Source of the DNA: Bacteroidales bacterium
Lineage (GTDB): Bacteria > Bacteroidota > Bacteroidia > Bacteroidales > UBA6680
Reading direction: 5' to 3'
Assembly: GCA_025210735.1 (NCBI GenBank)
Contig: JAOARD010000009.1
Coordinates: forward strand, 1 to 64,000
DNA length: 64,000 bases
Shown: positions 42,082-46,904 of the stretch, in pieces
Position numbering within the stretch: position 1 is the stretch's first letter
Layout: the number at the start of each line of letters is the position of its first letter
Position numbers and translations under genes: made by a program
Notes under the pieces: generated by a model
Told to the model about the DNA's origin: nothing
Seen by the model: the letters and a program-made list of their open reading frames with translations, nothing else
Databases searched by the model: none

Positions 42082-42262
42082 ATGCTATATGTTTTACCAA
42101 ATCTTATATTGCACCAGATTGTTAATATTCAGTTGAGGTGCAATTTGAGTTGTTGTATAACCGGATTATGGTATAATATATATTATCTTGAATATTGAAA
42201 TCTGTTGCTAATATATGGGGCAGATTAATTGTTATATTCGTACAATAAACAATATAAATATC

Positions 42263-43045
42263 ATGGGAATCTACAACAGATATATGCTTTACAGGATGAA
42301 CTATCTTACTGATTTTGGCGGAATTTACAGACGCTACAAAAGAGAGCAGGGGAGGTGGGATTCTCATCTGAATAATACAAAGCAGTTTATAATTGATAGC
42401 GCTAAGGATAAAAACGGAACCATTGTTGTTTTAGGTAGTGGTTGGTTGCTTGATTTTCCTGTTAACCAGATAATTAATCAATTTAACAGAGTTGTACTTT
42501 ACGATATAAAACATCCTGCACATGTTAAAAAGCTGGCAGCAAAACATAGTAATCTGGAGCTTGTATGTGCAGATATTACCGGAGGGATGTTAGAGAGATG
42601 TTTTAAACTAAAACAGTCTCAACTGAAATCAGACCTGTTTAATATAGTTTCGTATCTGTCGTCATCAAAATTTACTATTGATTATCATGCTGATTATGTT
42701 GTATCATTAAATATTCTTAATCAGTTAGATATATTATTGATAGATTACCTGAAGCAGAAAGGATTGAAGTCTGATGGTCAGTTATTAAAACTGCGAAAGA
42801 TGATTCAGGAGAAACACCTTGAATTTTTGTCGGGATATAACCATGCTGTTATTACTGATGTTGAGGAGGAGTGGCGCTCTGAGGATGATGAATTTTTAGG
42901 TGTTAAACCAACACTGTATGCGGATGTGTCAGCATATAAAGAGCAAAAAAAATGGCCATGGAATTTTGACTCTTCCATGACCTATTATGATGATAAAAAG
43001 GTTATACTAAATGTAACCGCTTTTAATGGTTTTGCTACTCCTTAA
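42263..43045 (+). CDS. Hypothetical protein with Rossmann-like nucleotide-binding core
   Basis: 260 residues from the Met at 42263 (an alternative start lies at 42215). The segment GTIVVLGSGWLLDFPVNQII followed by VVLYDIKHPAHVKKL looks like the first two strands of a class I methyltransferase fold, with a Gly-rich loop and an acidic end of strand 2; LVCADITGG could be strand 3. The rest is helical. I recall similar unnamed proteins in Bacteroidota. Substrate and activity are unknown. Its end overlaps the convergent GH16-like gene by 11 bases. Confidence 0.7.
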   Translation: MGIYNRYMLYRMNYLTDFGGIYRRYKREQGRWDSHLNNTKQFIIDSAKDKNGTIVVLGSGWLLDFPVNQIINQFNRVVLYDIKHPAHVKKLAAKHSNLELVCADITGGMLERCFKLKQSQLKSDLFNIVSYLSSSKFTIDYHADYVVSLNILNQLDILLIDYLKQKGLKSDGQLLKLRKMIQEKHLEFLSGYNHAVITDVEEEWRSEDDEFLGVKPTLYADVSAYKEQKKWPWNFDSSMTYYDDKKVILNVTAFNGFATP

Positions 43046-44474
43046 GATTATAACATCTAACCCAGTCAACCTCCATAGTTACCGGTAATACAGATCCGTT
43101 TATATCTGTATTAATACCAGAGCTAAGAGCTATATACATCTCTTCATCAGGAATATTTGTTGTAATCTCTTTAATAACAACATCGTTAATATACCATATT
43201 AGCTTCTGTGGAGTCCACTCAAGGGTATAGATATAAAAATCGTTTGCAAATTTACCTGCTTTCTTTTTGGCAATATTCTTCAGCATTTTCTCACCATCTT
43301 TGGTAAGAACCCCCATCTCAACATGTCCTTTTACGGTGTTCATGATGTTTATATGAGGATACGATTTGTTTGAAAGCATCCAGAAAGCATTTGTAATAGC
43401 CTTAGGATTGTTAATCTTTATCTTAGCCTCAAATTTTCCGTATTTCTGACGGAAAGTACTTCCGGTGTTAACAATACCAGATGAGTATTTAAAGCTCTTT
43501 GTTATGAAACCAAGTTTCGGATCCCAGATTTTCCCCTGGCAGTTATCTGATTTTGTTACAATCTTAAGATTTCCGTTTGTTACAGATACGTTTTCATCCT
43601 TGTAACAGTGCTGATCTCCGTATACAGAGTAGTTGTCGTTAAGAATTGTTTCGCCCCAGAAATGTCTGGTAATCCATTTGTCTGTATCTAGTTTTGTATT
43701 GTTAAAGTCATCCTCAAAAATCAGATTCCAGTTCTCAACTAAATTAAAGTTATTCTTCTCTTTTAGTTTAAGATGGCTAATAATTCTTTCAGATCTTTTT
43801 AATCCGTTTAGCTCCTCAACAAGTTTAAACTCATCAGAATTGATATATCTCTTCTTTTTGTTACCCTCCATAAGAGCTTTAAAATTCAGGAATCCCTCTG
43901 AATGAACAAACTCCTCAAGCTCTTTAAACTCTTTTAGAAGATCGCTTTTAGATATCTCTCTGTATGAGCTGTAATCGTCAGAATCTCTTGCCTCAAGATA
44001 CTTTTTAAAATCTTTGTCATTTGCAATAACATCAAACTCAAGTTTAACCTGATATTCAGGTGAATTCTTAAAATTACCGTTACTGCTTTTTGTAATAAAC
44101 TCTTTTGAATCAACAATTTTCCAAAGTTCCTGATACTTTTCTGCTTTCCCAGAAGCCTCTATCTCGTCAATTAACTTAGGAAGTCCTGAAGCCTCATAGT
44201 TGTAATATAGAGTTATTCGCTTATCCTTTTTTAACTCTTTGTATCTGGATAGTTTATGACTCTCTTCAGTGTCAGAAAAACTTTTATTCTCTATCTCGTG
44301 TTTACGCTGTTTAAACTCATCAGACTTTACGTAACTATCAATTTCGTAGTAACGTGCCAGTTCGTCAGAATCTTTAAACTCTATGAATTCCTTGTACGAT
44401 TGTTCAAGGTTTCTTTTTTGCTTCTCAACTTTGTAGGTTGAAGGGATCTTAAAAAACAGATTAAAGAGGCTCAT
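43035..44474 (-). CDS. GH16-like protein lacking catalytic residues
   Basis: 479 residues from the ATG at 44474. No signal peptide, so predicted cytosolic. Residues 20-240 are charged helical repeats with a recurring (S/D)(D/S)EF+..++.l++ pattern. Residues 246-479 have the GH16 (laminarinase/kappa-carrageenase-like) jelly-roll layout: NLIFEDDFNN, KLDTDKW, then YGKFEAKIKI and AFWML, and IYTLEWTPQKLIWYINDVVI, ending in MEVDWVRCY. The usual catalytic E-I-D-I-x-E is here H-I-N-I-M-N (374-379), so all three acidic residues are gone. It is likely a binding or structural protein, not a hydrolase. Confidence 0.85.
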   Translation of the reverse strand: MSLFNLFFKIPSTYKVEKQKRNLEQSYKEFIEFKDSDELARYYEIDSYVKSDEFKQRKHEIENKSFSDTEESHKLSRYKELKKDKRITLYYNYEASGLPKLIDEIEASGKAEKYQELWKIVDSKEFITKSSNGNFKNSPEYQVKLEFDVIANDKDFKKYLEARDSDDYSSYREISKSDLLKEFKELEEFVHSEGFLNFKALMEGNKKKRYINSDEFKLVEELNGLKRSERIISHLKLKEKNNFNLVENWNLIFEDDFNNTKLDTDKWITRHFWGETILNDNYSVYGDQHCYKDENVSVTNGNLKIVTKSDNCQGKIWDPKLGFITKSFKYSSGIVNTGSTFRQKYGKFEAKIKINNPKAITNAFWMLSNKSYPHINIMNTVKGHVEMGVLTKDGEKMLKNIAKKKAGKFANDFYIYTLEWTPQKLIWYINDVVIKEITTNIPDEEMYIALSSGINTDINGSVLPVTMEVDWVRCYNLKE

Positions 44475-44634: not shown

Positions 44635-45330
44635 TTATGGTACAACCAATTTGAATCCTTTTCCGTGAATATTAATTATTTCAATCTGCGGATCTTCTTT
44701 TAAATATTTTCGCAGCTTTGTTATATATACATCCATACTTCTGGCATTAAAATAGCTATCCTCTTGCCAGATGTTTTCCAGAGCATAGTTTCTTTCAAGT
44801 AGCCCGTTCATATTTATACAGAGAAGTCTTAATAATTCAGACTCTTTGGTTGTAAGTTTTTGAGTTTTTTCATCAATTGTTATTACCTGTTTCTTTACAT
44901 CAAAATTGTATCTTCCAATCTCAAAAAACTCAACATCCTCGTTATTATTTCCTGTTTTAACACGACGCATTATAGCATCTACTCTTAACAGAAGCTCCTC
45001 CATACTAAAAGGCTTTGTCATATAGTCGTCTGCACCAATAAGGAATCCTTCTATAATATCTTCTTTTAACGATTTTGCTGTTAAAAAGATAATTGGAGTA
45101 GACTTGTCTGTAGCACGGATTCGCTTAGCCAGCGTAAATCCATCCTCTTTTGGCATCATAACATCAAAAATGCAGATATCGAATGTCGATTTCTTGAATG
45201 CGTTGTATGCTGCAACACCATCTTTTACGTGCTCAACATCCAATCCTTTTGCTTTTAGATACTCAAAAAGCAACATTCCAAGACTTTCGTCATCTTCGGC
45301 TAATAGTACTCTTAAATTTTTTATACTCAT
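44635..45330 (-). CDS. rprY: OmpR-family response regulator, RprY-like
   Basis: 231 residues. Receiver domain with acid pocket LLAEDDES, phospho-acceptor Asp in CIFDVMMPKEDGF (about residue 54) and Lys in MTKPFS. C-terminal OmpR-type winged helix with KLTTKESELLRLLCINMNGL and SMDVYITKLRKYL. The sequence agrees well with RprY of Bacteroides as I recall it. Follows the histidine kinase gene by 5 bases, so the pair is co-transcribed. Confidence 0.93.
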   Translation of the reverse strand: MSIKNLRVLLAEDDESLGMLLFEYLKAKGLDVEHVKDGVAAYNAFKKSTFDICIFDVMMPKEDGFTLAKRIRATDKSTPIIFLTAKSLKEDIIEGFLIGADDYMTKPFSMEELLLRVDAIMRRVKTGNNNEDVEFFEIGRYNFDVKKQVITIDEKTQKLTTKESELLRLLCINMNGLLERNYALENIWQEDSYFNARSMDVYITKLRKYLKEDPQIEIINIHGKGFKLVVP

Positions 45331-45335
45331 GGTTA

Positions 45336-46904
45336 TTAATTTTTCAAACGGAACGGGAAAAATAGCTCAAAAGATGTGCCACGGTTTATCTCACTTTCAA
45401 CATTAATTGCCCCTTTGTGAAAATCAACCATTTTCTTTACATAACTTAACCCCAGACCAAATCCCTTTACATCGTGTCTGTTACCTGTAGAAACTCTGTA
45501 AAATTGATCGAATATGCGTTTCAGATCATCTCTTTTTATACCAATACCGTTATCTTTAATAGTAATAAATATACCTTCTTTATTGTTACGAGTGCTCAGT
45601 TCAATAACGGGTTTTTCTTTAGAATATTTCACTGCATTATCTAAAAGATTAGATATAATATTCGTAAAGTGAACCTCATCTAAGTTAACAATTGTTTCTT
45701 TAGCATTCAAGTTTACTTTTAGTTCACCATCTGCTTTCTCAATTATTAATTGTGTATTTCTAACAACATTGTTAATAATATTGTTTACATCAACATCTTT
45801 ACGCTTAAGTTTTATCTCTCCTTTATCAAAAACAGCCATCTGCAGAACCTTTTCAACCTGAAATCCGAGACGTTTACTCTCTTTGTTTATAATATCGCCT
45901 ATGCTTGAGTAGTTTTTAGCTTCGTCTGGTATAGATTTATCGCTGAGCATTTGCGATGCTAATGAGATTGTAGCAATTGGCGTTTTTAGTTCATGGGTCA
46001 TATTATTAACAAAATCGTTCTTTATTTCAGATAGTTTCTTCTGTCTGAAAATTATTCGCAAAGTGTAATAGAATGTTGATATTATAATTATTGTGAGCAC
46101 AATACTTGCTGTTAACAGAGGCCATAGCGAGTTTAACAGAAAACTGCTTCTTGACGGAAACGACAGATGTAGATAACTTGGTTTAGACAGAATATCATTT
46201 GGGAATAATCTGATACTGTATTCATTATCGTGATTATAGTTGTCAGGATCAATCGTTTTAAAAATATCCTCACCCTTATTGTTAAAAACACGATATACAA
46301 AGCCTGTATTTATTCCATTTAGCAAAAGCCTGCTTCTTATTATTGAATCAAGATAAGGCTTACTTATTCTATCCTCTATATCAACCTCAACTCTTATAAG
46401 TTTATTTACTACCTGTTCTACCATAATGGTTTTGTTTGATAACTTTTTTGATACAGGTAGCAGATCGTTGAATATTCTTTTACCTCCATCTCGTTTATCA
46501 TTGCTAAAGCCATGTATACTATTATTTAGGGTGATAGTATCAACACCCAGATATGCACTTAAACGAGGAATCTTTAATGAGTCAAGATCTTTAAGTTTAA
46601 AGAAACGTTGTTTGTATTGTTTGGTCTTAATTACGTTGCCTCCCTTCTCAAGTGTAATTGATTGTGTACCCATAAAATCGTATGAGTTAGTTGTTACAGG
46701 GCCAATATGATCCATAGAGTGTTTCAAAATCTCCTGATGCTCTATAACCTCATTTACTTCATGCAGGGCATTATGAACATCTTTGTCAAATTGTAACTTC
46801 TTAACACCAAACGATTGGTTTATCCATAAAGATTGAAACAGAATCAGAATTATTGATGCTGCACTTATCAGAAATACAACAAATTGTAGTACCTTATTAT
46901 TCAT
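45336..46904 (-). CDS. rprX: Sensor histidine kinase, RprX-like
   Basis: 522 residues. Two membrane helices (about 7-27 and 265-290) enclose a periplasmic sensor domain of some 235 residues. The cytoplasmic part has the H-box NNMTHELKTPIATISLASQM with the phospho-His, N-box ISNLLDNAVKYS, G1 ITIKDNGIGIKRDD and G2 GFGLGLSYVKKMVD. No HAMP domain is obvious. It phosphorylates the response regulator encoded just downstream; the signal is unknown. Confidence 0.93.
   Translation of the reverse strand: MNNKVLQFVVFLISAASIILILFQSLWINQSFGVKKLQFDKDVHNALHEVNEVIEHQEILKHSMDHIGPVTTNSYDFMGTQSITLEKGGNVIKTKQYKQRFFKLKDLDSLKIPRLSAYLGVDTITLNNSIHGFSNDKRDGGKRIFNDLLPVSKKLSNKTIMVEQVVNKLIRVEVDIEDRISKPYLDSIIRSRLLLNGINTGFVYRVFNNKGEDIFKTIDPDNYNHDNEYSIRLFPNDILSKPSYLHLSFPSRSSFLLNSLWPLLTASIVLTIIIISTFYYTLRIIFRQKKLSEIKNDFVNNMTHELKTPIATISLASQMLSDKSIPDEAKNYSSIGDIINKESKRLGFQVEKVLQMAVFDKGEIKLKRKDVDVNNIINNVVRNTQLIIEKADGELKVNLNAKETIVNLDEVHFTNIISNLLDNAVKYSKEKPVIELSTRNNKEGIFITIKDNGIGIKRDDLKRIFDQFYRVSTGNRHDVKGFGLGLSYVKKMVDFHKGAINVESEINRGTSFELFFPFRLKN

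Follow-up and report, generated by a model that had tools for sequence, protein, structure and literature searches.

A non-exported GH16-fold protein family of Bacteroidales with lost catalytic acids and a helical repeat array

The gene studied here lies on the minus strand of the window, i.e. the whole 64,000-nucleotide stretch of Bacteroidales DNA that was analysed. It encodes a GH16-type jelly-roll preceded by a helical repeat region, and comparison with its orthologs supports the view that the protein has given up glycan cleavage and is retained for some other role within the cell. This view is based on the absence of an export signal, the loss of the catalytic Glu throughout the family, a remodelled cleft, a variable number of helical units and strong purifying selection. 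The features of the gene are the following:

43035..44474, minus strand: whole gene, 479 aa, made up of a leader, helical repeats and a predicted GH16-fold pseudoenzyme domain (open reading frame, Pfam, AlphaFold2 model, dN/dS)
44439..44474, minus strand: leader, residues 1-12, hydrophobic-basic, MSLFNLFFKIPS, low confidence in the model
43755..44438, minus strand: helical array, residues 13-240, short Ser/Thr-capped helices in units of ~70-72 residues
43038..43733, minus strand: GH16 beta jelly-roll, residues 248-479 (Pfam, fold match to ZgLamC)
43488..43544, minus strand: hairpin, residues 311-329, with Trp317, Gly322 and Phe323 invariant or near-invariant in the family
43338..43355, minus strand: HINIMN, the former catalytic strand, residues 374-379 (EIDIME in active GH16)

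The gene runs from an ATG at 44474 to a stop codon at 43035-43037. The frame is closed by another stop 15 codons upstream of the ATG, which limits the open frame to 494 aa, and Met1 is invariant across the aligned orthologs, so that a wrong start or a missed signal peptide is excluded. No signal peptide or transmembrane stretch was found in any family member, all 19-residue stretches having a mean hydropathy of at most 1.25. The closed frame, the invariant Met1 and the low hydropathy thus leave no room for a signal peptide or a membrane-spanning segment.

The sole convincing Pfam match of the protein is PF00722 (GH16), at residues 292-451 (5.9e-13; score 49.1 bits, cut-off 22), and all 69 aligned members match it too. 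An AlphaFold2 model built on the alignment of 69 orthologs has a mean pLDDT of 92.9; residues 1-7 are of low confidence, residues 13-240 form helices and residues 248-479 a beta jelly-roll, which matches the laminarinase ZgLamC with Z 27.1 and an rmsd of 1.7 Å over 205 residues. The original prediction, made from the window alone, had described a seemingly cytosolic protein, the lack of a signal peptide, a helical repeat region of ~240 residues ahead of a jelly-roll with the GH16 layout, and the replacement of the three catalytic acids (HINIMN instead of EIDIME); these sequence features all hold for the window protein, its place in the cytosol being probable, and structure prediction, which had been proposed as a check, places the jelly-roll at 248-479 in a model whose overall confidence is high. 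This gene is the only GH16 gene found in its genome.

The closest known relatives of the domain are the GH16 laminarinases (ZgLamC, 4crq; Thermotoga, 3azx), which share the jelly-roll over its whole extent (Z 25-27) and give the best profile matches. The window family differs from them by the lack of the catalytic Glu, of the first platform Trp, of the Trp loop and of an export signal, as well as by the helical array in front. The best single-sequence match in the PDB is kappa-carrageenase (GH16; 1dyp, 5ocq), a likeness by sequence alignment that extends through the Trp hairpin at ~311-329; unlike the window protein, it is a catalytic carrageenase. This hairpin is missing from most of the ordinary GH16 compared, and it is a related insert that aligns in kappa-carrageenase. 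Nine residues are near-invariant and specific to the family in the alignment (W273, Y282, W317, G322, F323, R342, Q343, K351 and P373), and six of them (W273, Y282, W317, F323, R342 and Q343) suggest that a conserved surface or core of a new kind may have formed.

The former catalytic strand of the window protein, H-I-N-I-M-N at residues 374-379, aligns with the E-x-D-x-x-E of laminarinases, and the hydrolase motif E-x-D-x(x)-E with its nucleophile and acid/base Glu is absent from it. The catalytic columns were scored over 118 members, 104 after the removal of near-copies. None of the 104 has the acid/base Glu, which is Lys/Arg in 94 (90%); the nucleophile column holds His/Gln in 87% and Glu in 13 of the 104, and in the middle column most members have Asp, the window protein Asn. 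The family pattern is therefore H/Q/E - D - K/R, and both catalytic residues are intact in no ortholog, a finding that the original prediction had named as one that would speak against it if reversed. Among ordinary GH16 controls, the nucleophile and the middle acid are present in 23/23 and the acid/base at the aligned column in 22/23, with both catalytic Glu retained in 22/23. For comparison, about 1% of the GH16 outside GH16_3 and GH16_4 lack one or both catalytic residues, against 0.7% in GH16_3 and 9% in GH16_4 (PMC6827312). Judging from these columns, the whole family is marked by the loss of its catalytic acids, which is more than chance. The specific His/Asn/Asn combination, for which a check in the orthologs had been proposed, did not prove general: it is restricted to the window's genus, to L039, which groups with the window in the tree (support 91), and to L101 on a separate branch, and in this sampling it is a local variant, a further step beyond the family-wide loss. 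Two apparently intact members (L017 and L028) turned out to be ordinary GH16 that have signal-like N-termini and lack the helical part, and they were taken out of the set. A salt-bridge swap involving positions 376 and 379, in which D pairs with K/R and N with N/S/T/H, is not claimed, the p of 3e-5 obtained by a simple count at 70% dereplication, which ignores kinship, rising to 0.25 when the tree is allowed for.

The helical array has a repeat period of 69-75 residues by autocorrelation, and its units correspond to residues 35-101, 108-173 and 176-246 of the window protein. According to a unit profile, each protein has 2 to 10 units, in most cases 3-4, and their number tracks protein length (r 0.93), which ranges from 393 to 900 residues. 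Except in genes truncated at contig ends, every match to a profile of the region lies in a frame with a GH16 domain as well. No Pfam family matches the helical region, TPR, HEAT and spectrin-type repeats included, nor does any PDB sequence up to E 1. Modelled alone (pLDDT 92), the helical part has a best Foldseek E of 0.72 and VIA Z of at most 7.1; none of these fold matches is significant, which does not by itself establish a novel fold. The array thus constitutes a repeat family without a Pfam entry.

Several scenarios may explain these observations. The one we prefer, at about an even chance, is that the protein is a cytosol-side pseudoenzyme made from an old enzyme and serving as a scaffold or adaptor. 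The jelly-roll, no longer cutting sugar, would serve as a folded binding head, the helical array would be a spacer or rod whose length varies by whole units between species, and the hydrophobic-basic leader may act as a tether, either to the inner membrane or to some partner. It is the layout, a folded head on a rod of unit-wise length, which suggests a scaffold or adaptor; this role, the membrane contact and a partner other than beta-glucan in the old cleft are what we infer. The original prediction had placed the protein far from a secreted glycanase, which is well supported by the lack of an export signal or transmembrane stretch, the loss of the acids in all orthologs and the conservation of the helical repeats; its suggestion of an action in structure gives the best fit to the data, as an interpretation. 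A bolder and rather speculative proposal is that these are new intracellular GH16 pseudoenzymes of Bacteroidales, in which the retired glycanase fold caps a variable-length rod in an undescribed cytoplasmic scaffold or membrane-associated filament. Non-catalytic GH16 are already known, and what differs here is the non-exported bacterial setting, the family-wide loss and the helical array. A bacterial, non-exported GH16 whose whole family has lost catalysis under constraint would be a clean case of the reuse of a glycanase fold. On the strength of their domain match, annotations probably list the members as GH16 glycosidases, in which case the sugar-degrading capacity of their hosts would be misstated.

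The main rival to the scaffold is a cytosolic lectin, in which the dead cleft would bind an internally made glycan (for example a nascent surface polysaccharide on its lipid carrier) and the array would cluster it. Precedents exist in insects, whose beta-glucan recognition proteins or GNBPs (non-catalytic GH16_4) bind beta-glucan with a GH16 fold that has lost its catalytic residues and bears an N-terminal addition (PMC6827312, PMC6403176). The window protein shares the loss of the catalytic Glu with them, but it is bacterial and non-exported, the loss extends to its whole family, and its N-terminal part, instead of a carbohydrate-recognition domain, is made of all-helical repeats without a Pfam or PDB sequence match. 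The cleft itself gives mixed signals. Two platform Trp (238 and 242 in ZgLamA) have been described as general to GH16, the negative subsites involving a further Trp264 and polar residues (PMC4606783). In the family alignment, the second platform Trp (column 365) and the core are kept; this Trp would favour a lectin, and the Lys/Arg that most members have at the acid/base position would suit an acidic glycan. Yet the family lacks the first platform Trp (column 361), the Trp-Pro loop that precedes the catalytic strand in laminarinases is deleted, and the cleft His at 390 and the sugar-subsite Asn at 285 are mostly not kept. The canonical beta-glucan cleft is thus largely dismantled, the binding of an internal glycan being possible. 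The case of Rv0315 from Mycobacterium tuberculosis also argues against sugar binding: this bacterial GH16 fold without glucanase activity, which lacks the -2/-3 subsite residues, failed to bind laminarin (PMC4606783). Unlike the window protein, Rv0315 retains both Glu and carries a signal peptide, and no helical repeats have been described in it. Moreover, no polysaccharide gene is found among conserved neighbours, and a link with glycogen was rejected: a branching-enzyme match at E 0.001 occurs in 212/247 genomes of the order, with and without the family, and is therefore without predictive value, and at this threshold there is none in the window's genus (G000, G001, G002). With one platform Trp and the Trp loop gone and the branching enzyme undetected in this genus, the internal glycan ligand of the original prediction has lost ground, and we regard the lectin as possible but doubtful.

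In another scenario, non-classical export would bring the protein out of the cell, where it would work at the surface or in the matrix. An extracellular place is the usual one for GH16 domains, and the leader keeps its hydrophobic and basic character across the family: its length up to a conserved Thr has a median of 14 residues family-wide, it is rich in Leu, Phe and Lys, and acidic residues make up ~1% of it against about one fifth of the helical part. Across the family, the leader shows no increase in hydrophobic moment. This composition may be consistent with contact with a membrane or a partner, and is taken as a lead only. Since all members are devoid of a signal peptide and of a transmembrane stretch, and the upstream stop closes the frame in the window, such an exit seems improbable compared with the cytosol-side scaffold.

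It is still less probable that the protein is an enzyme whose catalytic residues have been relocated, for instance to an acid at column 369 or to the basic residue at 379. An acid near the cleft at column 369 is present in ~86% of the members, and the Lys/Arg at 379 in 90%; because of this new acid, some unusual chemistry may be possible in the relatives. Nevertheless, the window protein has Asn 369, His 374, Asn 376 and Asn 379 and so keeps none of the candidate residues, and most other columns conserved as Asp/Glu in the family are acidic in ordinary GH16 too. The other outcome that would have weakened the original prediction, different acids taking over the active site, was thus not observed in the form of any invariant new acid on the catalytic strand.

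Finally, the loss of the catalytic residues might reflect the decay of a former glucanase gene without function, a reading which is contradicted by purifying selection on both domains (dN 0.044, dS 0.91 and dN/dS 0.05 against a 92%-identical ortholog) and by open frames across dozens of genera, and which we consider next to inconceivable; such a ratio rather implies that the protein is maintained.

In a set of 41 genomes, made up of that of the window and 40 relatives, 13 hold a clear family member. When the Bacteroidales are sampled evenly (294 genomes, threshold E 1e-15), 79 genomes match at this threshold or better, nearly all with a single gene. In a sample of the phylum (392 genomes), the only family-level match is the window's own genome, and the other nine matches (E 1e-21 to 1e-22) cover the GH16 part only and have intact acids, as ordinary GH16 do. 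Named hosts include Marinilabilia, Thermophagus, Anaerophaga, Carboxylicivirga, Marinifilum, Breznakibacter and Perlabentimonas. A branch with support 100 separates the family from the ordinary GH16 in a tree built from 76 domains of the former and 21 of the latter. According to these data the family is monophyletic and single-copy in about a quarter of the sampled Bacteroidales genomes. Two typical members come from records labelled Candidatus Atribacteria (L057) and Chlorobiota (L061), probably mis-binned or mislabelled MAG contigs. No published description of the family was found in a partial literature search. A phage or defence origin was rejected, with no relative in viral contigs and nothing that counts in PHROGs or PADLOC.

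The gene has no conserved neighbour across clades and no neighbour names a pathway; a conserved operon partner was rejected, as neighbours differ between clades, and the order rprX-rprY-[gene]-lepA is kept only in some near relatives. Upstream, at 44635-46904 on the minus strand, lies a two-component pair close to RprY/RprX (361 bits with the RprY model, whose cut-off is 370). The convergent neighbour at 42215-43045 on the plus strand (276 aa), which overlaps the gene end by 11 bases and adjoins the gene in near relatives only, has a very weak methyltransferase-like match (PF08242, E 0.14). In four near relatives (L077, L084, L091 and L092), a small protein of ~126 aa is encoded directly before the gene.
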